A DNA stretch of 64,000 nucleotides, from positions 1 to 64,000 of the forward strand of contig RPFO01001017.1 in assembly GCA_009746045.1 (NCBI GenBank), given 5' to 3'. This DNA is from Mesostigma viride (Eukaryota; Streptophyta; Mesostigmatophyceae; Mesostigmatales; Mesostigmataceae). A model generated the notes under the pieces. It was given only the letters and a program-made list of their open reading frames with translations. It had not been told where the DNA came from and searched no databases. Below, one piece after another: positions 15,584 through 62,043 of this stretch. Within the stretch, counting starts at the first letter, position 1, and each line of letters starts with the position of its first letter. The translations under genes and the position numbers were made by a program.

Positions 15584-17781
15584 ATGAGCAAACGCCTCTC
15601 GACGCAACGCAGCCTGGCGGCTGCGCTCAGCAATGAAAATACGTCTGCAGCCCCGGCTGCAGCTTCGCCAACCGGCCCAGAAGGCAGCGGCGCCACTAGC
15701 CAAGCTCTAGTGGTCGCCCAGCCCCCTGCTGAGCCCGCCTCGCCCGCAGCGTCGCCTGAACCCAAGCGCAGTCGCTCTGCCGAGCCGAGTTGGATAGCGG
15801 CCGACTTTGTCGCCGAAGCCAGCCAGCCCGGCTTCCTTGACACGCTTACCACGGAACGCATCCTGGTCTGCGTGTTTCAGGGAACGCACGCCTCGCTTCT
15901 TGCACTATGCAAGCAGCTCTTCAACCAAGGTCGCCTCTTTGACCCTCGCTGGATTCGTATCTCCTGTTTCGACACCATTCCCAGCCTCCACCGCCCCTAC
16001 CTCCAGCATGTCGCTCTCTTTTCCCTCCTTGGACGCTCCATCGGGGAGCTTTGGCCCCCCAAGCCTCTCACCACCACCTTAACCGAATCCTCCATCCGCT
16101 CACTCCTTAAGGAGGCCCTCGAGGAGCACGTGGACCCCATTGCTGCAGATGTGGCGGCCATCGGCGGCACGCTGACTGCCGAGCTTCCCCTCCTTTCCAC
16201 CGCCACCTCCACCATCTCCACCGCCACCTCCACCCGATTACAATTCGTTCAAGTGGCCCGCCGGAGCGGCTGTACAATTTTTCCCAGTGAGCGCGCTGCC
16301 AAGTGTACTTGTGGGCAAATTTTTAGGTGCCCCGTCACTTCGAGGTACTAAAAATTAGGCTACGGTACGAATTCAGCGAATTTCAGCGAATTTTCAGTCG
16401 AACCAAAGGAAGTGACGCCAAGTACCAAAAAGTTTCCGTTACGAATTTTCAGCCCAACACTCGCGCAAAATGAAGTGACGGCAACTACCAAAACGTTTCC
16501 GTTACGAATTTTCACTCCCACACGTTTGCACAAAAGGAAGTGACGGCAACTACCAAAAAGTTTCCGTTACGAATTTTCAGTCCCACACTTCGCGCAAATT
16601 TTAGTAGGGCTGCACGCAAGCTACCTTTCAAAATTTTGCGCTAGTATGGAACGCATTTCATTCGTCTGGAGGAACGCTGCCCGCCAACTACCCCCGTTCA
16701 GAATGTTCCGCCGAAATTTACTTGAGATTTGGAAATCTGAACGTGCGCGCAAATTTTAGTAGGGCTGCACGCAAGCTACCTTTCAAAATTTTGCGCAAGT
16801 ATGGAACGCAATTCATTCGTCCGGAGGAATGCTGCTCGTCAACTGCCCCCGTTCAGAAAGTTGCGCCGAACTTTACTTGAGATTTGGAAATCTGAACGTG
16901 CGGTTGGAGTTTCGCGGGGAAACCCAAGTTCCCAAGTAATTCACCAATGACGCGCTTCGAACACTTGCCCGCTAAAACCTAAGCAGCCGCTCCGGCTGGC
17001 CACTTAAACGAAACTTGATTGGCTCCTCGCCTCCTCCACCGCCACCACCTCCACCTCCGACGCCATCACCGCCCAGCTCCGTGACATCGACCAGCGTCTT
17101 AAGGACAACGCCATCGCTATCGAGGTTCTGCAGAACACCGCAGGCCTCACCGCCCAGGCGGTGAAGGACATTGCCGCCAAGCCAGCCCCGGCTGGCCTGG
17201 CCGGCGATGCTCCTCCCATCACCACCTGGGCGGACATGCTTAAGCAACATACCACCTCCACCACCTCCGCCGTCGCAGCCCAGCTCCAGCGGCAGACGCT
17301 TGACCTCCGCGAGGAGGCCGAGCTCTCCAAGCGCAGCCTCAACGCCATCCTCAAGAACTTCGACCTGGTGGAAGGTGAGAATTCCGAGAAGCTTGCACGT
17401 GCGTTTGAGAGCAAAATCCTTGCACGCATGGGCCTCCTTGGTGAGATTAAGCTGACCGCCCACCGCCTCCCCCGCGCGCGGGGTAAGGCAGGGGCGCCTC
17501 CGCTTCTTCTCATCTTTAAGAGCCCAGCGGACAAGGTTTCGTTCCTCAGACGCCGCAAGCGGCTCGAGAACACTCCCTTCACCGTGGACGACGACTTGAC
17601 CCTGGCGCAGCAACAACGGCGACGGGAGCTATGGCCGACCTACCTCCATGCAGCTCCGGCAGACCAAGGCGGGCCAGCCGGTGTACTGGAAGGGGGCGGA
17701 CATCTACGTCGGCCACAAGCCCTGGCACGCGACCCCCTCAACCACCGCGGCCCCAGCGACTCCGGCAGCCCCAGCCTAGGG
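15584..17781 (+). pseudogene. Half-LINE ORF1 protein, interrupted by a DNA element
   Basis: The first part (from ATG 15584 to about 16240) begins MSKRLSTQRSLAAAL, then a Ala/Pro/Ser-rich stretch with KRSRSAEPSW and a helical middle (GELWPPKPLTTTLTESSIR). After the inserted element it resumes at about 17030 with a coiled-coil-like region (QLRDIDQRLKDNAIAIEVLQ), LPRARGKAGAPPLLLIFKS (RRM-like segment) and a terminal [20 protein letters not shown]. This order resembles LINE ORF1 RNA-binding proteins (coiled coil, RRM, C-terminal domain); the function is inferred. A small insertion near 17645 shifts the frame before the conserved VYWKGADIYV end, so the copy is dead. Confidence 0.75.
16240..17017. 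mobile_element. Non-autonomous DNA transposon inserted in half-LINE ORF1
   Basis: Inverted termini at 16246-16272 and 16984-17010 match at 25 of 27 positions (left arm CGTTCAAGTGGCCCGCCGGA...). Between them is non-coding DNA with two internal direct-repeat families: AAGTGACGGCAACTACCAAA...GTTTCCGTTACGAATTTTCA three times (about 16395-16600) and a ~95 bp unit starting CGCGCAAATTTTAGTAGGGC twice (about 16598-16690 and 16747-16840). It splits ORF1, and the related half-LINE copy 2 lacks it. GATT occurs on both sides and may be the target duplication. Confidence 0.7.
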
Positions 17782-32494: not shown

Positions 32495-47085
<14,591 letters not shown>

Positions 47086-48144
47086 TGTAACCGGATGTCA
47101 CCAGGGTAAGCCTTCCAGTTCATAACGCGGCCGGCGGCGAGCGACCATCCGAAAGTAAGCTCGTTCCTTACCACTAATCTGCCAAATTATTGCATGGTGC
47201 GAAGACAGCTGACCACAGCGCGCCCAAATGATCGGATAATTCCAAGATGCAGCTGTAGGTCAGCGCGCGGGTGAATACCGAAATCACTGCAGTGCCAGGA
47301 TCCGCCATAGAACCACGTCCAAAACCATCTGTTGTGTGGCACAAACTGCCAGCTCGTCGCGTCGCCCATCGCCCAGCAAGGTTCCATAATGAGCTCGCCT
47401 GGTCATAGAAATTCAGGGAGCTTCCGAATGGCCGGAACTACTTCTTGAAGAATACGTCGTACACAAAAACGGGGAGCGAAGTGTTCGGAAGTAAAGCGAC
47501 GCTTCACACCGAATCGCGGAATGATCCATTCTGCCATAAAGGAATGATCTGGCAGGCTCTCCGCGTCCGGGTGCGACAGTTTTACGCCACGTGTCCGGAC
47601 TCGCGCACCCACCATGCAATGCCAATTTTATTTAGGACCCAGTCCGTTCGCGCAACCAGCATTGCTAGCTACCGGTATAGTTAGAGCCTCGGGGTGTGCG
47701 CAGATTGATCGTAGCTGCTGCTGCCCGATATTGTCGGTACGAATATGGTCGCTTATTAGGTTTCTGGGGGCGGCGAGGATGGTTTTGAGACGAAAAATGG
47801 GTGGCATGGCTCACCATGTTTTCCACTAATCGGCAACAGGTGAATTGTGTTCTGTGCATGAGGGGATCTTGCCATCCAGAGCTGGCAGGGCGAGCTTGGG
47901 CGAGTTTCTCACAAGGATCGGAGGCCAAAGTGTCGAGACGTGCCTTTCTGAGCATGCACGGCCCTGCTAGCGTGGCGAGCCGGGAAATTCCTGGCCTTTC
48001 CAGCATGATGTCGCATGAGCGTCAGAGACGGGAAATGGATAAGCCGGCAGGATGAGACTGGAGTAATTACATTTTCCTATTGGTCCTAGTAAAGCTGGAG
48101 CAGTTATCAAACATCGGCTTGGTATCCACGCCGCGCCGGTCCCC
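47086..48144. promoter_or_regulatory. Shared upstream region between DnaJ (-) and HIR-like gene (+)
   Basis: The 1,059 bp separating two divergent start codons must contain both promoters. I could not identify specific elements. A small minus-strand frame at 47403-47615 (WIIPRFGVKRRFTSEHFAP) has no recognised similarity. Confidence 0.4.
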
Positions 48145-49836
48145 ATGGGCCTATGCTGCAGCATCGTCCAGCAAGGCAACCTGGGCGTGGTCACCCGCTG
48201 CGGCCGCTTCTCGCGCACAATCGGCCCAGGCCTGCACCCGACCTGCATCTGCCTGGGCGACGTGCTCGCCGGCACGCTCAACCTGCGCATCTGCGACAGC
48301 ACGTTCCACGGCTCCTTTAAGACCCTCGACAACGTGTTTGTGGCGGTGACCCTGTCCGTCCAGTACCACGTCCAGCAGGAGGGCGCGTACCAGGCCTTCT
48401 TCCGCCTGGCCTGCCCCGAGGAACAGATGCACGCTTTAATCCGCGACGCGATGCGTTCCGCGGTCGCCAGGCTAACGCTGGATGAGCTCTTTTCGGCCAA
48501 GGACTCGTTGGCACGCCAGGTGGCATCCTCAGTGGCCACCCCCCTGGACGTGTACGGCTACACCATGGACAAGCTGCTAATTTTAGAGATCGAGCCGCCG
48601 CCCGGCGTGCGCGACGCCATGAACGAGATCCAGCGGTGTGCGCGCCTGGCAAGTGTGGCCAGGGAGCAGGCAGAGGCCGAGCGGCTGACAGCTGTCAAGG
48701 CGGCGGAGGGCTGCTGTGAGAGCATGGCGCTCAACGGCCGGGGCACCGCGCGGCGCCAAGTGGCGGTCACGCAGGGCTTGTGCCTGGCGGCGCGCAACCT
48801 GCTCAAGCACGTGGAGGGGGTGACGTTTGACAGCGCGGCCGCCACGCTCATGCTGGGGTACCACTGCGATGTGCTGGCGGCGATCAGCCACCGCCAGGAC
48901 AATACGGATGGGCATGGCGCCGCGAGCGAGGGAGGGGGGGGGCGGGACCGACCCGAAACAGGGGCAGCCATGGCCGAGGCGGGAGGGATTATAATGGGAG
49001 GGGGGGGGGCGGGGGGAGGACTGTATTGGGGTGCGGAAGGGATGGTGGCGTCGACTGGGGCTGGGCTAACGCACGGCACTATCATCGGCGGCATGGGGCA
49101 CCACCCAGGGTCGGGGGCGGCGGGCGGTGGGCAGCTGTGGAGAATGCAGGGGGGCTCACAATGGCCAGCGGATGGGCTCCACCGGAGTGGTGGTGGTGGT
49201 GGTGGTGGTGGTGGTGGTGGTGGTGGTGGTGGTGGTGGTGGTGCGGCGGCGGCCAGTCCCCACCCGCCAGGTGGCAGGTCCACATTGCTTGTCCCCTTTG
49301 GCGCGTCACCCGTGCCGTCGATGATGGAGCAATACCGGCGCACGGCACTCGAGTTCCGCACCACGCGCGAGCTGTCCCTGCGCCACGCCACGCACTGCCA
49401 GCTGGAGGCATTGCGCGTGCCGTCCACCAAGAGCAGGAAGGCGCCGCAAGAAGGAAGGAAGCCCTCAGCGCGACAGGGAGCATCCCTGGGGGGTTCCGGC
49501 ACACTCTCATCGGAGCGTGCATCCGTGCCGTTACTGCCGTCAGCATCAGGGGCTGTCTCTGCGCCCTTGCTACCATCCTCCTCCACCCACCCATCCACCA
49601 GCCCATCCTTCCCTGCAGCCTTTGGCCCCCGGCCACCCTCCTTCGGGGCGCACCCTGTGGCAGCACCCCTGCAGCATGGCTCAACTATGGCGTCGCCGGG
49701 TGCGGTCGCGATGGCTCGTCCTTTATCGGGTGGGGGTGCTGCAGTCGCGCGTCCTGGGCAGGGTGGTGCGTGGGACCCGAGGGCGCTCTCCAGGGTGCAC
49801 CCGGACCGCAACGTGGACCTGGACGCCGTCGTGTGA
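48145..49836 (+). CDS. HIR-like SPFH/band 7 protein with long Gly-rich C-terminal extension, intronless
   Basis: One open frame of 563 codons. The N-terminus MGLCCSIVQQG has Gly2 followed by Cys4-Cys5, a classic N-myristoylation plus palmitoylation signal as in plant hypersensitive-induced-reaction proteins. The SPFH domain (about 5-210) shows the family's landmarks: DNVFVAVTLSVQYHV, LTLDELFSAKDSLA, YGYTMDKLLILEIEPP, VRDAMNEIQRCARLASVARE and AEAERLTAVKAAEG. Such proteins oligomerise as scaffolds on the inner face of the plasma membrane. HIR proteins usually end near 285 residues; here a low-complexity extension of about 270 residues follows, with a (GGT)n-encoded Gly run (~349-367), a short conserved-looking helix (MMEQYRRTALEFRTTREL) and the end RNVDLDAVV. 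Unlike all annotated neighbours with introns, it is uninterrupted. The extension is unusual; a missed intron could in principle remove part of it. Confidence 0.8.
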   Translation: MGLCCSIVQQGNLGVVTRCGRFSRTIGPGLHPTCICLGDVLAGTLNLRICDSTFHGSFKTLDNVFVAVTLSVQYHVQQEGAYQAFFRLACPEEQMHALIRDAMRSAVARLTLDELFSAKDSLARQVASSVATPLDVYGYTMDKLLILEIEPPPGVRDAMNEIQRCARLASVAREQAEAERLTAVKAAEGCCESMALNGRGTARRQVAVTQGLCLAARNLLKHVEGVTFDSAAATLMLGYHCDVLAAISHRQDNTDGHGAASEGGGGRDRPETGAAMAEAGGIIMGGGGAGGGLYWGAEGMVASTGAGLTHGTIIGGMGHHPGSGAAGGGQLWRMQGGSQWPADGLHRSGGGGGGGGGGGGGGGGGGAAAASPHPPGGRSTLLVPFGASPVPSMMEQYRRTALEFRTTRELSLRHATHCQLEALRVPSTKSRKAPQEGRKPSARQGASLGGSGTLSSERASVPLLPSASGAVSAPLLPSSSTHPSTSPSFPAAFGPRPPSFGAHPVAAPLQHGSTMASPGAVAMARPLSGGGAAVARPGQGGAWDPRALSRVHPDRNVDLDAVV

Positions 49837-50000: not shown

Positions 50001-50455
50001 ATGGAGGAGTGCAAGAAATCATGGTGCGTGAATGCTGGCAGCCGTTGTGTGCGCATGCTGGCAGCCGCCCCGTGGGACGTGGCAGATGCGGGTGTGTGAG
50101 GGGGCGTGGTGGCAGATGGCAGCCGCCTGCTACTGAGACCTCTGCTGTGAGAATGCATGTGGATGGATGCATCGCGCGCCACGCATCCGGAGCACGGCGC
50201 GTTGCTGCCGCACCCACGAAGACCTTCAGGGCGGCTGCAGGGCGTGCGGGTGCCAGCAGCCACAGGCATTGTAGGGCTCTGCTGGGGTCTGCGTGCCGGT
50301 CGTTCAGGCCAAAATGGAGACGCCCGAATAAGGTCACCCGAGTAACGCCCAAACATGGACCACCGAATGGGGACGCCATTGGACTTGATGAATCGGGCTC
50401 TTGGGCCGTGCTTCGACGGTGGGCGCGTGGCGTTCTCATGATGAGCAATGACAGT

Positions 50456-50850
50456 ACACTGTAGCGCCATCCAATACACTGTAGCGCCATCCTATACACT
50501 GTAGCGCCATCCTATACACTGTAGTGCCATCCTATACACTGTAGCGCCATCCTATACACTGTAGCGCCATCCTATACACTGTAGCGCCATCCTATACACT
50601 GTAGCGCCATCCTATACACTGTAGCGCCATCCTATACACTGTAGCGCGTGGCGTTCTCCTGATGAGCACCATTCTATTCACTGTAGCGCCATCCTATACA
50701 CTGTAGCGCGTGGCGTTCTCCTGATGAGCACCATCCTATTCACTGTAGCGCCATCCTATACACTGTAGCGCGTGGCGTTCTCCTGATGAGCACCATCCTA
50801 TTCACTGTAGTGCCATCCTATTCACTGTAGCGCGTGGCGTTCTCCTGATG
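50456..50850. repeat. 20-bp minisatellite with higher-order units
   Basis: Units of CCATCCTATACACTGTAGCG (about 10 consecutive, 50465-50645), then blocks where GCGTGGCGTTCTCCTGATGA GCA alternates with one or two such units (50640-50845). The same 20-bp unit forms an array at 56147-56390. Confidence 0.9.
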
Positions 50851-51309
50851 AGCAATGACAGCGTTGCAACGTATCATTTTGACGATGATGTCACAAAGTT
50901 TTAATTGACGACGGTGCTGCCGTGTGGTGTTGATGATGGTGTGACATGGGGGTCACGAACACTTTGGCCGCGTGGCATCTGCCCGATCTGCTTGGCCATG
51001 GGAACGCATCACCGTCCGCCAGTGACATAATTACGCGCATAAGTGAATCTACTAGGTTGGGCCACGATCGAGCTTCGTAGCCGCTACCACATTCACTGCG
51101 TTGCAGACCCTGCGCAGACATCGATGGCTCATGAGTGCAGCGTGTGCATATGCATGATGGTATTTTTGTGCATATATAACGGTATCTTGTTTATGACGGC
51201 ACGGTTTGGCCCTCGAGGTCGAGCCAGTCCTCGCGGAGCTGGCAGCACTCGTGGAAGGATTCTGCGGTCTTGGGGCCCAAGGCACGAACTCTTCAAGAAC
51301 AAAGGGGAT

Positions 51310-52110
51310 GACCCCATACATGTTAAAAATTATAATTACTTACATCATAGTGAAGGCACCCAAACATTACCAAAGCCAACGCCAACAAGAGATACCGGCC
51401 ACTACGAAATAACTACAAGCCGGCATGGGACACTCCACACCGTGGAATGAAGTAAAACAGCCTAATAACCGTGCTGCGCCACAAAGTCAGCCCGCGTGCG
51501 GCAGAGCAAGATGTCAGCCATAGCCTGGGTAAGCGCTACCCAAAGGCCCGTTGGCGCCAGTACGACGTCCAGGTCTGCGCCGACCAAGGGGCCCGCTGGC
51601 CCTCCAGGTCCAGGCGGTCCTCCCAGAGCCGGCCGGCAACACTTCTTAAATAAGCCGGCGGTCAGGGTCCCCATGGCCCCGAACTCCTCCTAGACAAAGG
51701 GCACCACACGATGGTGCCCAACGTTGCCATAGGCCGTGAGCTTGGCCCGCTCAGCCCGATCCGCCGTGTAGCCCGCCGCCTGGTATGCACCAGCTATTTG
51801 GCTAAGAGCCAAGGGGCGAGCCACAGAAACGTCAATGAGCAAGTGCCGGCCGCCTCCCTCAAAGTCCAGAACCACGACGTCAGGTCAGTGGGGGGGGAGT
51901 AGAGCCGCGCCGTCCGCATCCTCAGACCGGATGTTCGCCAGCGTGGGAGAAAACGGACCGGACCATGGCGAGCACCACCGTTCGTCAGGAGGACAGTGTG
52001 CAAGTACAAGTACCAATGCAATTCTGGTTTTGTTAGCCACCCATGCATGATAGGTAGTGGGTCCCAGTACGTGGGGTCCAAGGCCTGCCCGCAGCGCTAC
52101 CACACTGAGG
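51310..52110 (-). mobile_element. LINE C 3' portion (minus), pseudogenic
   Basis: Minus strand: NIRSEDADGAALLPPH, then VVLDFEGGGRHLLIDVSVAR, RAERAKLTAYGNVGHHRVVP and MADILLCRTRADFVAQHGY, broken by frameshifts and a stop, and a 3' UTR to about 51325. The conserved LIDVSVA...ERAKL...FVLEEFG pattern resembles the C-terminal region found in some LINE-like polyproteins; its activity is unknown to me. Confidence 0.7.
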
Positions 52111-52116
52111 CCGCCC

Positions 52117-52372
52117 TGCATAATAAATATATATTCATTGAGAATGATAAATTACGGAGGTGAGATTGGCATGCAACACAAGGAAAACCCCGAAAAGAAG
52201 AAGAACCCTGAAGAAATTAATAGTCATCTGACACGGACATCCAAGGACATCCTAACATATATTCGTTAAGAATGATAGATTACGGTGGTGAGATTGGCAT
52301 GCAACCTAAGGAAAACCCCGAAAAGAAGAAGAACCCTGAAGAAATAGTAATCTGACACGGACATCCAAGGAT
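52117..52372. repeat. Two tandem ~125-bp units (LINE C subfamily 3' UTR)
   Basis: The unit from about 52128 (ATATTCATTGAGAATGATAA...GGACATCCAAGGA) is repeated from about 52258 with few changes, directly 3' (minus strand) of the next LINE C coding fragment. Confidence 0.8.
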
Positions 52373-52399
52373 CACGCCAGCTGCACAAGGTACAACTAA

Positions 52400-53274
52400 C
52401 TACATCACAAAACTACGACACGCAGCAACATCGCTGCCGGCCCACCAATGATGCAGGCCTGGGAGGGATCTAGACTGCATGGGTCGCGACAAAGTCGGCC
52501 CGGGTGCGGCGGAATAACACATCAGCCACGGTGTGAGTGAGGGCGAGTGACAGGCGCTGCCGCCAATACGAGGACCACGTGCGGGCAGACCACGGGGCGG
52601 TCTGACCCTCGAGGTCGAGGCGGTCTTCACGGCGCTGGCAGCACTCGTGGAAAAACTCCGCTGTCTTTGGGCCCATGGCCCCGAACTCCTCAAGGACAAA
52701 GGGGATGACCCGGTGGGGCCCCACATTGCCGTAGGAGGCAAACTTGTCGCGCTCAGCCACAGCGGCAGCAGCGCGCCGGCATCCACAGCCGCCCGGAGGA
52801 TGTGGCGACCGGAGAGCGGCCGAGCCACGGAGACATCGATGAGCAGGTGGCAACCCTGCCCGTCGTAGTCAAGCACGGTAATGTCGGGGCGGTGGGTGGG
52901 TGAGTAGAGGGCGGCCCCATCCATGTCCTCGCACTTGATGGTGGAGTGGGGAAAGACCGACCGAACAATGGCACACACCACCCGGAGGAGAGCGGTATGG
53001 AGATAGAGGAACCAGTTCTGGTTCTGCTGGCCACCCATGCACGCGATGCAGTGCGTCCCTGTAGTATCGAGAGCAAGCCCGCAGCTGCCGCGGGACGCAC
53101 CTGCCGTGATGAGAGGCCGGGTTGCGGGGCAAACAGCTGGTGGCGGAGAGCGATGGCGTACAGGGCCGGCACCAGCGTGAACAGAGGGCTCATGGGGAGG
53201 GCGCGCAGGAATGCGGACCCCACGCTCCCCTCAAGGGAAACTGAGTGAAACCAAGCCTTCCCCTGATCGTTCAA
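52400..53274 (-). mobile_element. LINE C subfamily copy (minus), C-terminal coding part
   Basis: Minus strand, three frames in succession: MNDQGKAWFHSVSLEGSVGS; HRPDITVLDYDGQGCHLLID; DKFASYGNVGPHRVIPFVLE through RTRADFVATHAV with stop at about 52470. Two or more frameshifts. It is the most 5'-extended LINE C copy in the window. Confidence 0.7.
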
Positions 53275-53280
53275 GCTCGC

Positions 53281-54262
53281 ACCCTAATATATATTTTAAA
53301 AATATAATTACTTACAGCAGAGTGAAACCACTCAAACCAAAGCAAACGCCCAGCTATAAACCTATATACAGAGCCATGTCAAAGCTCTATACTACGATAA
53401 GACCAATGGAAACTCCTACCGGGAGGAACCTAATAGCCCTGCTGCAACGCAAAATCAGCCCGCGTACGGCGGAGCATGATGTCAGCCATGGCCCGAGTCA
53501 GCGCCACCCTAATATATATTAAAAATATAATTACTTACAGCAGAGTGAAATCACTCAAACCAAAGCAAACGCCCAGCTATAAACCTATATACAGAGCCAT
53601 GTCAAAGCTCTATACTACGATAAGACCAATGGAAACGCCTAACGGGAGGAACCTAATAGCCCTGCTGCACCGCAAAATCAGCCCGCGTACGGCGGAGCAT
53701 GATGTCAGCCATGGCCCGAGTCAGCGCCACCGACAAGCGCTGACGCCAATATGACGTCCAGGTCCGCGCCGACCATGGGGCCCGCTGGCCCTCCAGGTCC
53801 AGCCGGTCCTCCCGGAGCCGGCAACACTCCTTGAAGAAGGCGGAGGTCAGGGGCCCCATGGCCCCAAACTCCTCCAGGACAAAGGGCACCACACGATGGT
53901 GCCCGACGTCGCCGTAGGCCAGGAGCTTGGCCCGCTCCGCCCGGTCCGCCGTGTAACCTGCCGTGAGGGAGGCCCCAGCCACGTGGCTAAGAGCCAAGGG
54001 CCGCGCCACCGAAACGTCAATAAGCAGATGCCGGCCACCCCCCTCAAAGTCCAGCACCACGATGTCAGGCCGGTGGTTGGGGGAATATATACTACTAATA
54101 TATATTAAAAATATAATTACTTACAGCAGAGTGAAATCACTCAAACCAAAGCAAACGCCCAGCTATAAACCTATATACAGAGCCATGTCAAAGCTCTATA
54201 CTACGATAAGACCAATGGAAACGCCTAACGGGAGGAACCTAATAGCCCTGCAATGAATATAT
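53281..54262 (-). mobile_element. Cluster of LINE C 3' ends (minus), partly nested
   Basis: Three copies of the same UTR (AATATATATT...AATATAATTACTTACAGCAG, ...CTAATAGCCCTGC) start at about 53286, 53511 and 54098. The middle one extends to about 54085 and encodes an unbroken 135-codon C-terminal segment (VLDFEGGGRHLLIDVSVARP to RRTRADFAVQQGY). The first copy is bracketed by the 15-bp match ACCCTAATATATATT (53281-53295, 53506-53520). Successive insertions appear to have used the AT-rich tail of earlier copies as target. Confidence 0.8.
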
Positions 54263-54860: not shown

Positions 54861-56146
54861 CAGTGGTAGTACCTAGCATGTATATATGAGACAACACCCT
54901 TGCGCATGCGAGTAACATGGACTGCCCTAATTGAACTGACATGTATTAACCACTTTCTTGCCAGGCTCAAATGATTGCCAGGCCGGGTGCCAGCTGGCCG
55001 GAGGGCACGTCAAGTACATGGTCCTAGATCCTCCTCGTTGAGGGCAGATTGCTATGATACATGCATACAGGATACGTCCTGGTGGTTGTGGGTGAAGTGT
55101 GAACCCTGGGTATGAGCCCCTAAAGTTCTCCCCTGGCCTTACCCTTCAGGCCGGTCCGGGATAGGCAGGCCTAGTTATATTCTCCCGCACCGGTGCCTCT
55201 CAATGAGTACCCACATGACGCAGTCATGTGCTTTCATGTCCTGATGGCCAAAACGCTACCGGCCTTGGCTTCCCGCCTCTACTCAAACTAGAATACAAGT
55301 CGGTGAGGTAGCTCTAGAACAGAGGGAAGCGCTTGATGATGACAGATCTAGGATACGGGTCCTCCCGATGTCAAGCCTCTGCTTATTCATGTCAATTGAT
55401 AGCATGGTCACTATCTATGCTATATAGTAATGTTGGTTGTCTCATTGATACCGGCGACCGCCCAAAGTTTGCAAGCAATGACTAGATGATCACATGCATG
55501 CAGCAAGAAGGATCATAATTGATCACCCGAAAATGGCCTTGGTCGCTTTCCCCCACGTGGAGGTGAGGTGGCCCACCATGGCCGCCGTCGCCGTGCTTCC
55601 TGCAACACCCACATGGGTGGCAGCAGCGATATTAACATACAAGACGTAGAAAGCCGTGTTATGATCCGTCGGTAGAGAACCGTTGAGTATCATGCACATG
55701 AAAGAATAGATTTCGAAATGGGTGGCTCCCACTATCCCTTTGGTTGATTGTGTTTCGACATGCACACAGCAGGAGGGACAGGATATACAGCCACATGGTC
55801 ACTGATGCCATATATATACTGATATGCTATAGGCGCATGGTGCTTCATTCAAGAGGCGGCTAGCTTCATGCTGGTAATGGGTACAGTACAGCATTCTCAT
55901 GCCACAGGCTAGTGCTGTGCTGCATCTCTAACAAAAGCATAGCAACAAAGCCACATACTGGCATGTGAAGCAGCTATCACTGTTTCCAGCTAAGTTACCA
56001 ATATTAGACGAGAGCTAATGAATTGTTGTTCACGCTTGGCTTCATGACGCCAAAAGGGTGCGGCTAGACTTGTTGAAATGGCAGGACATTGCAAATAGGA
56101 GTAGCCAGGCAGAGATGGCCACCGCTCGTACTTCCGTAGACATTCC
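54861..56146. other. Intergenic sequence
   Basis: No gene recognised. Short minus-strand frame 55523-55765 has no family resemblance. Confidence 0.4.
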
Positions 56147-56393
56147 ATAATATCCTATGCACTGTAGTGCCATCCTATACACTGTAGTGCCATCCTATAC
56201 ACTGTAGTGCCATCCTATACACTGTAGTGCCATCCTATACACTGTAGTGCCATCCTATACACTGTAGTGCCATCCTATACACTGTAGTGCCATCCTATAC
56301 ACTGTAGTGCCATCCTATACACTGTAGTGCCATCCTATACACTGTAGTGGCATCCTATACACTGTAGTGCCATCCTATACACTGTAGTGTCAT
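56147..56393. repeat. 20-bp minisatellite, same family as 50.5 kb
   Basis: About 12 units of CCATCCTATACACTGTAGTG, differing from the array at 50.5 kb mainly by GTAGTG for GTAGCG. Confidence 0.95.
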
Positions 56394-56458
56394 CCTCCCT
56401 GGATACATAGGGGTGGCAAGTGTGGGCTACTTCCTGCACTTTTCGAGGGCAGCTGTAA

Positions 56459-56672
56459 TTGGGCGACAAGCGTGTGGGCATCTCTCCTCTAGAAGCACGA
56501 GGATGGATGATTGGGAAGGGCGACAAGCGTGTGGGCATCTCTCCTCTAGAAGCACGAGGATGGATGATTGGGAAGGGAGACAAGCGCGTGGGCATCTCTC
56601 CTCTAGAAGCACGAGGATGGATGATTGGGAAGGGCGACAAGCGTGTGGGCATCTCTCCTCTAGAAGCACAAC
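56459..56672. repeat. 57-bp minisatellite
   Basis: Nearly four copies of a 57-bp unit (GGGCGACAAGCGTGTGGGCA, TCTCTCCTCTAGAAGCACGA, GGATGGATGATTGGGAA). Lies just downstream of the EFCAB9-like gene's last recognised exon. Confidence 0.9.
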
Positions 56673-56830: not shown

Positions 56831-59800
56831 TCACACCTGTAATTTTAACCACGTCAAGTACCACAGGCCAGGCCACTCACTGCGCTTCTTGGTCGCTGTC
56901 GCTTGCTGCTGCGCCTCTAGGCATGCGAGTGTGAACATGCGAAATTCTTCATAGTCCAGCTCCTGCACCATGCAGCCATGCATGCATGGGGGCCAGAGAT
57001 AATCAACGCCGGCCACGTTACTGCAGAGGTGGTGAACTGCCTCCCGCATGCGCAAGCATGGCAATGTCACAGGCATGACGCACCACAAAATGATAAACCA
57101 TAATTATGGAAACTACATCCAACATGTGGCAGGGAGGTAGGGCAAGATGGAAGGGGGGGAGGTTGTCGTAGGGGAGGTGAAAGCAGGCGCCTTGAAGCAC
57201 GCACGGCATCCTCATCGCCCGGCCATGGATGCCATGCAACATGCTGAAGCCCATGCGTACGGATGACAGCAGATACATCAGCAGAGAGCAGCGCAAGCAG
57301 TTCAACAGCTTGGTGATTTGGCCACAGAGGGGACGGGGGGCAGCATGCCATTTATCGGAGAGCAGGATGAAGGAGCATATCCGAGGAGCACAATGAAGGC
57401 ATGTGTGTGGAATTGTGAGGTGACATTGTCACAAGTGCCGGGTCAAGGTTGTGCGGTATCTATTGTGCGAAATCTATTCTGGGAAGGTGAAGCGAAGCCA
57501 GGTGGCCGCACGCAGAGCTCCTGTGGAAGCATGGCAGCGCAACGCGCAATCTTTTTTATTTCACTGTGGGTCTTTGCGAAAGAGTGACTGGATGCCCTAG
57601 GCAAGGGTGGAGGCTCACCGCTAAGGGGCAACTCCCAGCACCAAAGGAGGCCTCCACTAGAACTGCTACGGCACGCGGTGGGTATCCCACGGCATGTAGT
57701 GGGGTACTGCCATGGGAGGAGACATGCACTGCTAAGAGGAAGTAAAGAGACTGAATTGAACATGTACGTTTCAAGGCGAAAATCGATAGTAAGGCCCCAA
57801 CATGCCCCCCAGGGGTACCGCCCGCGCGCACCTGGCTGCCGTCGATGTCGAACTGCTTGAAAATCTTGCGCGCGCTATCCATGGAGATGTTGAAGACAAA
57901 GCCAAACCGCTCAAACTCCTGCACTTGGCGTGTCCAGACGCGCCAGCATGGCATGGCAGGGGGAGTCACCGAGCGGGAACAGGAACAAACAAAACCAGAA
58001 AAGAAGGGGTAAAAAAAGATTGGGAACGCCTGGTAGAACCCCCTCCGTGCGCCAAGAAGTGCAGTGGAGTACAATGGGGTGAGCGTGTTCAACATGCATG
58101 GACAACAGCTACAAGGCTGGCACGACATCAAAGCGCACACTAGCAGTTGCAGCCACGCCCTCAGCCAATGAATGCTGTTACAACGGGTTGCGCCTGCTGT
58201 AGTGCTACTATTAGTGTCAGATAACTTGGAATTGGCGCACACGGTTGGCGCTTATTAAACAGGGATTCACCCTCGAAAGACTCCTCACATGAGCTAGCGG
58301 TTACTCTTACGCGCTAGCGCTGGCTAATCACCCTCCTCAACCATGCAACCATACTGCTACCCTGAGGCCAACTCAGGTATCATGTTTTCCCGCTTTCGGC
58401 ATCAGATCCGCAAACACGCAAATGCCAGCCATGCGTCCGCTCCGTGTAACAAGCTGCCATCCACCGGCACCAGAGGCGGCGACCCGAGGGACGGCATGTA
58501 GATGTTCTCCCCTGCTGCCACCTGGCGCATGTGGGGCCAGCGACCGACCGCGTTTACAAGGGACCGCCACGCCCTACCTGCTCCCACCAGCGGTGATATG
58601 TTCATGGCCCCACCAGTACCCGGCGAGTGGAGCTATTTTTAGCGCCGCAGCCGCCCACCTGCAGCGTGATGGTGCCGCCCCCGTCCTCGTCCAGCAGCGC
58701 AAAGCACGTGCGCGAGTGGATGCTCAGGAAGACCCGCTCGTTGTGGTGCTGGCAGAGGGCACAAGGGTGAGGGGCGGAGGGCCGAGGCAACATGAGGGCA
58801 AGGGCCGAGGGCGCACCATGGTGACGATAGCCAGCAAGGGCAGAAGGCAGAGGGATCATGAGGGCGAGGGCAGAGGGGGCGTGGGGGCGTAATTTCAGCA
58901 TTGGGACCATCGGGAGAGATCGAGTCCATACAGGACAACATCATCCGGGGGGGGGCAGCCTTGGCGAATCCGTAGGATGAGAACACACCGGGCGTGCCAC
59001 CGCCCGGTGTGAGCAAGGTAAGGGTCGTTCCAGGCCAAGCCATCCAGGCAAGCATCTCAAAAATCCACGAGCACTTACTGTTACCCATTTTGTTCTAATT
59101 ATTGTGAATCACAGACGCATAAGCAGTATGACTACAGGGCTAGCCATCCAGGCAAGCGTCATTAACATCTACAACTATCTAGTATTACTCAAGTTATTCG
59201 AACAATGAGCAATTATGAACATGAGGAGTATAAATATGTCGTGTCATAGTAGGCGAAGAAGCATAGGGCTAGCATCGTACCGTCCTCCAAAGATATGTCT
59301 CACTAACTGCACATGACACTGCCCCTGGCCGCCTTGTCCTTATGATAGTAATAACGATAATAAAATGGCGATTGACAATCACAATACCCAATGAACAAGA
59401 TGTTAGCCTCCCCTGAGCCCACTGAAAGATCATGGAAAGCAGGCAGGCAACGCTTTCAAGCCCTGAAGCAACCGCTGAGATGAAGTGTGGGGCAGTGGGC
59501 TATGCGCACAATGGGACCCTGTGGGCAGCAGAGTATTCTTCAGCTAGCCCTATACTTGCCAGCCGGCAATCCTACCTTGACGGCCACACACATGCACACG
59601 AGCAGGTAGCACGCATCACCACGGCGGCTTGCTGGCGGACTCACCTTGACGGCCACACACATGCACACGAGCAGGCAGCACGCATCACCACGGCGGCTTG
59701 CTGGCGGACTCACCTTGACGGCCACACACATGCACACGAGCAGGCAGCACGCATCACCACGGCGGCTTGCTGGCGGACTCACCTTGACGGCCACACACAT

Positions 59801-62043
59801 GCACACGAGCAGGCAGCACGCATCACCACGGCGGCTTGCTGGCGGACTCACCTTGACGGCCACACACATGCACACGAGCAGGCAGCACGCATCACCACGG
59901 CGGCTTGCTGGCGGACTCACCTTGACAGCCACACACATGCACACGAGCAGGCAGCACGCATCACCACGGCGGCTTGCTGGCGGACTCACCTTGACGGCCA
60001 CACACATGCACACGAGCAGGTAGCACGCATCACCATGGCGGCTTGCTGGCGGACCCACCTTGACGGCCACACACATGCACACGAGCAGGTAGCACGCATC
60101 ACCACGGCGGCTTGCTGGCGGACTCACCTTGACGGCCACACACATGCACGCGAGCAGGTAGCACGCATCACCATGGCGGCTTGCTGGCGGACCCACCTTG
60201 ACGGCCACACACATGCACACGAGCAGGCAGCACGCATCACCACGGCGGCTTGCTGGCGGACCCACCTTGACGGCCACACACATGCACACGAGCAGGCAGC
60301 ACGCATCACCATGGCGGCTTGCTGGCGGACCCACCTTGACGGCCACACACATGCACACGAGCAGGCAGCACGCATCACCATGGCGGCTTGCTGGCGGACT
60401 CACCTTGACGGCCACACACATGCACACGAGCAGGCAGCACGCATCACCACGGCGGCTTGCTGGCGGACCCACCTTGACGGCCACACACATGCACACGAGC
60501 AGGCAGCACGCATCACCACGGCGGCTTGCTGGCGGACTCACCTTGACGGCCACACACATGCACACGAGCAGGTAGCACGCATCACCATGGCGGCTTGCTG
60601 GCGGACTCACCTTGACGGCCACACACATGCACACGAGCAGGCAGCACGCATCACCACGGCGGCTTGCTGGCGGACCCACCTTGACGGCCACACACATGCA
60701 CACGAGCAGGCAGCACGCATCACCACGGCGGCTTGCTGGCGGACCCACCTTGATGGCCACTAGCATGCACACGAGCAGGTAGAATTCGTCGAAGTCGATG
60801 AAACCATTGCCGTCCACGTCGAACATCTCAAACACGTGGTTGATCTTGGCTTCGGACAGGTCGGTCGCGCAGCACATGAACGACCTGATGATGCCATGGA
60901 AACAGGACAGTCGAGTAGGGGAGAATTTGTCAGGTATGGAAGCATTGGTAACAGGTCCGTCGCTCACCACATGACCTGGCATAGTGAGGTACGGGGTGGA
61001 TAATAATTGAATAGGAAACAGCCGTCAAACAGGGGCTAAAGGGGATGACAGGTCGGCGGCGCAAAGCATGACCGACCTGATGGCGTCATGTTACAAACAG
61101 CCACAGTATAGGCAGCAACAGTCCATGTGTTTCTGGTGCTACGCGTCAGTCGTGCCCCGCACTAAGCATAGAAGCATAGTGAGGTAGCATGGGGGAGCGG
61201 GTGCTAGTCAAAGGAGCGGTTGGGCCCGATCCTGGACACCACGATTCCAAAGGAGCGGTCGGCATTCCCTGTGGGTGCTAGGGACAGGTGCGTTAGTCAC
61301 GCAACGCGTGAAGGACCCGACGATCGAATGGGACAGATGACAATCCCAAGGGTGGGTGTGATACCATGGGACATACAAAAATCAGATAGAATGATGGCTA
61401 GGAATGCATAGCTCTATCTGCATTCCTAACAGGTTGGTTGATAGACACCAAACGAGAGGTAGAGCAGTTATGCTAGAGGATCGCGGTAACGTCAGCTAGC
61501 CGAGCGGTGTGGGTAACAGCGCATGAAGGGGGCTACAAGCTTGCAGGACAACCGTGGGTCACGAGCAAGACTGTTGCGCGACAAGGATATTGGATAACGA
61601 TTAAGGCTGAGTAGACAGGCGAGCGCGCCAGTGCAGACGGCATCTAGTGAAGGCGCCAAGGTAACACGCTCACATAGACATGGTTGGCAGCTTACACAGG
61701 CGCACCAGCTGACTGCGCCGTCTACAGATGCCATGTCGGTCAGGCAACCATACAATTATGCCAGGCCCCACTGCGATGACAGAAATGGGTGACGTCTTTG
61801 TACGACGTGGATGCGCCGCGTGGAATAGACCGACATGCCAGCGTCGTACCACAAGAAAACATCGAACTGCAACTCGATGGTTACGACGAGAGGGTACCTG
61901 AAAGCGATGTCGTCCATGCGGGCGTGCTTGCGTACGTCCAAGGCATCGAAGAGGGCCTGAATGTATTGCAACCCCCTCGCGCTAAGCAGCTGGTGCGTCC
62001 GTTCCAGGTGCAATCGCTCCAACAAGGGAAGTCGAACCTTCAT
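56831..62043 (-). CDS. EFCAB9-like EF-hand calcium-binding protein, at least five exons
   Basis: Minus-strand exons 62043-61898, 60884-60749, 58748-58659, 57918-57832 and 56962-56881 join in phase (GT-AG), giving about 180 residues; the end may run to a stop at 56831 or into an unseen last exon. It starts MKVRLPLLERLHLERTHQLL. Three canonical calcium loops are intact: D71-V-D-G-N-G-F-I-D-F-D-E82; D114-E-D-G-G-G-T-I-T-L-Q-E125; D148-I-D-G-S-Q-E-L-D-Y-E-E159, the last two split by introns. The order and wording (LLSARGL, KINHVFEMFDVD, FDEFYLLVCMLVA, FERFGFVFNI, LDYEEFRMFT) match EFCAB9, the calcium sensor of the CatSper channel complex in sperm flagella. Other EF-hand proteins are possible but fit less well. 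Exon 2's donor heads an 18-copy 69-bp array in the intron. Confidence 0.8.
59575..60770 (-). repeat. 69-bp array duplicating the EFCAB9 exon 2 end and splice donor
   Basis: Seventeen further copies (period 69 bp = 23 codons) follow the true exon 2 end. Each contains LLVCMCVAVK-type codons (compare the exon's LLVCMLVAIK), then AAG|GTGAGTC or AAG|GTGGGTC and about 36 bp of former intron (PPASRRGDACC if translated). The frame of exon 2 stays open across the whole array to about 59540. An opposite-strand frame across it is an artefact of the repeat. Confidence 0.95.

Follow-up and report, generated by a model that had tools for sequence, protein, structure and literature searches.

A minisatellite of splice donors at the exon 2/intron 2 boundary of an EFCAB9-like gene in Mesostigma viride

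Tandem repeats associated with splice sites have been described in human and fission yeast genes. According to the excerpts of PMC2812944 considered here, human internal tandem repeats at exon-intron boundaries are found in recent primate gene duplicates, averaging 4 units of 30 bp, and most of the intron changes in these cases also have transcripts retaining the repeat in the exon. In fission yeast, tandem units containing proto-splice sites have been reported as the source of two introns (PMC3629103; PMC4974935); in the excerpted text of these reports the unit motif is given as AGGC in the former and AGGT in the latter, and PMC3629103 itself notes that, for one of the two introns, splicing in vivo needs more study. 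In this article, a tandem array of splice donors is analysed in an EFCAB9-like gene of the streptophyte Mesostigma viride, located within positions 1 to 64,000 of contig RPFO01001017.1 (GenBank assembly GCA_009746045.1), the stretch of 64,000 nucleotides that is referred to below as the window.

The array resembles the human repeats in being a minisatellite expansion at an exon-intron boundary, with units of tens of base pairs that span the end of a coding exon and its intron, while it differs from the cases in the excerpts of PMC2812944 in comprising 17 copies of 69 bp, in belonging to a gene found once, and in being known here from DNA alone. With the fission yeast units, as far as the excerpts of PMC3629103 and PMC4974935 describe them, it shares a splice-site motif in each unit and introns spanning units; there the introns were new, whereas here the array occupies the beginning of an intron, the ends of which are consistent with a conserved protein. 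Likewise, Rogers-type intron gain by duplication of AGGT segments, as outlined in the excerpt of PMC4974935, has AG/GT at unit boundaries in common with this locus, which differs in showing no sign of a new intron and in an ancestral junction that is still usable. The EFCAB9 protein of CatSper (PDB 7eeb chain I; PMC8147001, in excerpt) is alike in its EF hands and in a gap-free alignment over residues 10-111, and is distinguished by the donor array in the EFCAB9-like gene. An array of 18 donors was not found in the open-licence literature searched. The locus is a donor minisatellite of a type known from earlier reports on exon-intron boundaries, and it is unusual in its copy number, in the near-identity of its donors, and in a period that is neutral to the frame.

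The array is probably a near-neutral minisatellite that arose by tandem duplication across the EFCAB9 donor, with the later donors contributing minor noise at most. Tandem Repeats Finder (TRF) identifies it at 59574-60779 with a period of 69, 17.5 copies, 97% matches, 0% indels, and a score of 2251. On the minus strand, 17 exact 69-bp steps separate the first donor (60748) from the last (59575), resulting in 18 AAG/GT junctions, at which the donor is GTGAGT in 10 cases, GTGGGT in 7, and GTAGGA in the last. Each unit is composed of an exon-like part of 33-34 nt (11 codons) and an ex-intron part of 35-36 nt, and closes with GTCAAG followed by the next donor, one copy having a silent change near its GTCAAG. 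The exon frame continues uninterrupted from exon 2 across the 17 copies, the first stop being a TGA that follows 33 nt after the last donor begins. A search with 20 nt taken from the ex-intron part gives 17 matches at up to 3 mismatches, compared with a mean of 0.01 in 100 shuffles, which excludes a chance origin of the array.

An earlier sequence-only reading of this stretch had proposed a 17-fold repetition of the exon 2/intron 2 junction with a 69-bp period, producing 18 donors, and this is borne out by both TRF and the reading of the junctions. Its 23-codon period with a stop-free exon frame is confirmed in all 17 copies, and its set of 18 donors, each of which would keep the frame, agrees with what is predicted from the sequence, in which the 18 junctions are of similar U1 complementarity. 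The donor motifs that it named, GTGAGT and GTGGGT, hold for 17 junctions and fail for the 18th, while its layout of about ten exon-like codons and 36 bp of former intron is close for the latter part (35-36 nt) and slightly short for the former. The sequence following the last donor was also considered as a decayed ex-intron copy, a candidate that is unsupported since 3866 of 5000 shuffles scored equally high.

The six exons of the gene (Table 1), when joined, encode an open protein of 205 residues. In a protein homologue comparison covering PDB chains, the two best matches are both EFCAB9, namely 7eeb_I (E = 9e-32, residues 10-186 of 205), belonging to a structure that we take to be the mouse CatSper channel, and 9ubw_I (3.8e-30), with a calmodulin-calcineurin fusion following in third place at a far weaker 1.1e-13; the EFCAB9-like identity proposed earlier therefore stands. 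The families PF00036, PF13499, and PF13405 exceed their cut-offs in this protein, the Pfam matches being mainly to general EF-hand families. Exon 6 is the least supported exon, as the PDB alignment ends at residue 186 of 205 and its genome match consists of the window's own sequence only. The gene was found once in the 440-Mb assembly, where only these six exons match at E <= 0.001; neither a second copy nor a second haplotype was detected at this threshold, in a search that scored 13 candidates, listed no calmodulin, and could be escaped by a diverged paralogue. The CATSPERD family PF15020 was not found in the genome, but 14 of 14 control genomes were likewise without a match, so that this negative is uninformative as to a CatSper complex.

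Table 1. Positions in the window of the EFCAB9-like gene and of the donor array at the end of its second exon
Feature	Position	Strand	Support
Exon 1, 146 nt from the ATG	61898..62043	-	translation, genome match, PDB alignment
Exon 2, 136 nt if the first donor ends it; ends ...LLVCMLVAIK; the exon-like part derives from its last 33-34 nt	60749..60884	-	
First donor, GTGGGT; yields the conserved EFCAB9 protein	60743..60748	-	translation, PDB alignment
17 units of 69 bp in tandem, each with about 36 nt of ex-intron and 33 nt of exon-like sequence (23 codons), open in the exon 2 frame	59576..60748	-	
Last donor, GTAGGA, then unrepeated intron sequence, where a TGA ends the frame after 33 nt	59570..59575	-	
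Intron 2, 2000 nt from the first donor, 827 nt from the last donor	58749..60748	-	
Exon 3 (HHNERVFLSIHSR..., read by eye as the following canonical EF-hand loop), with TGCCAG as acceptor	58659..58748	-	PDB alignment, genome match
Exon 4	57832..57918	-	PDB alignment, genome match
Exon 5	56881..56962	-	PDB alignment, genome match
Exon 6, to the stop	55526..55599	-	frame and splice phases agree

The array most likely originated when 69 bp across the exon 2/intron 2 junction of the EFCAB9 gene were duplicated in tandem and then expanded through unequal exchange or slippage. The functional mRNA would use the first donor at 60748, with an exon 2 of 136 nt, and the later donors would give rise to minor in-frame noise at most, so that a period of 3n would let the gene tolerate splicing noise with no adaptation involved. 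Two observations point to the first donor. The alignment with 7eeb_I is gap-free over query residues 10-111, and the junction of exons 2 and 3, after residue 94, falls inside this segment; the conserved protein is thus what the first donor yields, and each later donor would insert n x 23 residues where the EFCAB9 of 7eeb has none. Additionally, exon 2 would measure 136 nt by way of the first donor and 1309 nt by way of the last, while the other exons of the gene range from 74 to 146 nt, a difference that speaks for the first donor provided that the exon is the unit of recognition.

The abundance of minisatellites in this genome provides the background against which the array should be viewed. 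In the window, they cover 7,233 of 64,000 bases (about 11%), and in a sample of 20 stretches of 10 kb, all from contig C1 and reduced to 151,779 readable bases because four consisted entirely of N and one mostly of N, they cover 10,885 bases (about 7%); overlapping TRF rows were merged by best score, and arrays with a period below 10 or fewer than 2.9 copies were excluded. At such coverage, some arrays would be expected to lie over donors. Genome-wide, triples of AGGTRAGT at gaps of 51-81 nt occur at 534 + 176 = 710 places, compared with 65 + 506 = 571 for the reversed motif. These counts refer to places rather than arrays, and most of the roughly first 100 of the 710, the ones listed, come from two arrays (on C91 and C1010), with none listed for the reversed motif, so no excess of donor-bearing arrays was drawn from 710 versus 571. 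Four other arrays that were read directly carry 4, 15, 4, and 7 AGGTRAGT motifs, which means that donor-like arrays are not confined to the EFCAB9-like gene; their periods, in ascending order, are 25, 27, 59, and 89. One of the four has a frame open from end to end, and a position at an exon end was shown for none.

The array of these four that has the open frame, of 27 bp x 8 (L033, G000:C887:4173400-4174500, minus strand), contains seven AGGTAAGT motifs and may represent a second donor minisatellite. The EFCAB9-like gene itself harbours further minisatellites in intron 5, one of 20 bp (ATCCTATACACTGTAGTGCC) at 56152-56396, whose motif by eye is common to an array about 6 kb away at 50455-50854, and one of 57 bp at 56461-56669 with 3.7 copies that are 97% alike. 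The exact 14-nt core of the ATCCTATACACTGTAGTGCC repeat was present in 3 of 29 loci, all of them on this contig.

The meaning of the open frame can be assessed on the same background. The period is divisible by 3 in 26 of 56 minisatellites (22 in the window and 34 in the sampled stretches), and of 4549 stretches of 36 nt from the gene's intron sequence beyond the array, 65% lack a stop in a given frame; the product of the two figures places the chance of an open 3n array at about 0.3. Three of the six frames of the array unit are open, and among 3n arrays with a period of at least 20, at least one open frame exists in 11 of the 12 examined, including the EFCAB9 array, these being the 12 of 14 in which 3 also divides the consensus length. 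None of the 69 transitions possible in the consensus unit creates a stop in the exon frame, and since all five variable sites of the array are transitions, 17 stop-free copies need no selection. The open frame and the 3n period are thus weak evidence for a length-variable sensor.

Variation among the copies gives a similar impression. Four of the five variable sites are nonsynonymous (S/G, R/H, C/Y, V/A) and one is silent, on a baseline of 46 nonsynonymous changes among the 69 possible transitions of the unit, so that variation in the insert appears to be about what would be expected in the absence of constraint, a weak indication given the few sites. Between the exon's own copy and the array consensus, 5 of 33 sites differ; the exon copy reads MLVAIK, with an L that is common to 7eeb at that place, and all 17 later copies read MCVAVK. 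The presence of a TAC codon in the exon and in 5 of 17 copies suggests that TAC is older and TGC derived. Four neighbouring units, from 59920 to 59713, are identical and look like the outcome of local homogenisation.

The strength of the donors was estimated from pairing with U1, for which two loci were found in the genome, both with the standard 5' end ATACTTACCTG. The pairing energies are -9.9 kcal/mol for GTGGGT (including the first donor), -10.7 for GTGAGT, and -9.2 for GTAGGA, and those of the gene's other four donors are -7.1, -10.3, -6.8, and -6.8 kcal/mol. All 18 donors therefore roughly equal or surpass most other donors of the gene in their pairing with U1; judged by this pairing no copy looks dead, and in-frame mis-splicing through the later donors is plausible.

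Several of these results weigh against a near-neutral array spliced from its first donor. U1 pairing gives the first donor no advantage over the GTGAGT copies. According to the excerpt of PMC5585400, the intron-proximal of two competing donors is activated by SRSF1 and the intron-distal by hnRNP A1; in this gene, the intron-proximal position belongs to the end of the array farthest from exon 2. An intron 2 beginning at the last donor would measure 827 nt, within the range of the other introns (740-1281 nt). These three considerations mean that use of later donors must be reckoned with. Furthermore, the 17 copies contain no frame-breaking indel, and the donor consensus MAGGTRRGT occurs within the unit in 1 of 56 arrays, namely the EFCAB9 array, so that such arrays are uncommon.

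Among the alternatives, the one that survives best, while still unlikely, is that the donors compete at a cost or in a regulatory manner, with some transcripts keeping parts of the array and the array length setting the amount of normal EFCAB9. It would draw on the similar U1 complementarity across copies and on the competition between neighbouring donors that the excerpt of PMC5585400 documents, but it is countered by exon length, as an exon 2 of up to 1309 nt would stand far outside the 74-146 nt of the other exons.

Less probable still is the length-variable calcium sensor suggested by the sequence-only reading. As elaborated here, a purposeful choice of donor would place n x 23 extra residues between the two canonical EF hands, thereby tuning the protein, and also the channel if this is CatSper-like. 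The 18 donors of similar strength that share one frame, and the 17 copies without a frame-breaking change, are what such a sensor would display. Nevertheless, positive support for it did not emerge: the EFCAB9 chain in the PDB is gap-free at the insertion point, the five variable sites look unconstrained, open frames are usual among 3n arrays here (11 of 12), and the fold predicted for the insert tells no more than the one predicted for an antisense frame. AlphaFold2, run without an alignment on exon 2 plus the array, returned an all-strand repeat with a mean predicted local distance difference test (pLDDT) score of 76.4 and a predicted template modelling (pTM) score of 0.82 in the best of five models, in which residues 1-32 of the EF-hand part fell below a pLDDT of 50. 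As modelling of the array's antisense open frame gave a mean pLDDT of 79.5 and a pTM of 0.69, the strand-repeat fold was taken for an artefact, and such an artefact has been reported for repeats of random sequence (PMC11795689, in excerpt). It is quite improbable that the 18-donor cluster yields a protein ladder with 0 to 391 extra residues between the EF hands, the range of which would be set by array length and depend on the strain.

Intron birth of the Rogers type within the array, where AAG/GT would offer both a 3' AG and a 5' GT and pieces of n x 69 nt would be spliced out, is very improbable, for although AAG/GT stands at every unit boundary (18 of 18 junctions) and the fission yeast units provide a precedent, all 5 acceptors of the gene end in CAG while the unit boundaries supply AAG only, and an intron already present at the site makes a new one unneeded.

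If the later donors are used, the array would present a naturally occurring set of near-identical 5' splice sites, spaced 69 nt apart before one acceptor, and thus a test of spliceosome choice, as well as a case in which a minisatellite could alter a protein without a frame break. If they are unused, it would be a clean case of an exon end tolerating repeat expansion.

The remainder of the window contains several other features. A 65-bp repeat is present in three copies at 16405-16598 and in three at L020:3115-3308, with a consensus that by eye is apparently the same on opposite strands, linking C1151 to C1. An open frame of 685 aa on the plus strand at 33959-36013 carries a DDE_Tnp_1_7 transposase domain (E = 1.3e-45), and another on the plus strand at 48067-49833 carries a Band 7/SPFH domain (E = 2.8e-26) and includes a (GTG)19 run at 49187-49243. 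At 42751-42779, in the interior of the contig, a 7-bp repeat of the CCCTAAA type, presumably the plant-type telomere motif, occurs four times next to an array of 62 bp x 17 (42823-43862). Several related open stretches on the minus strand at 51465-54120 resemble, by eye, repeated pieces of retroelements, and the first 1.4 kb of the contig (6-1448) is occupied by an array of the CCCCCGA type.

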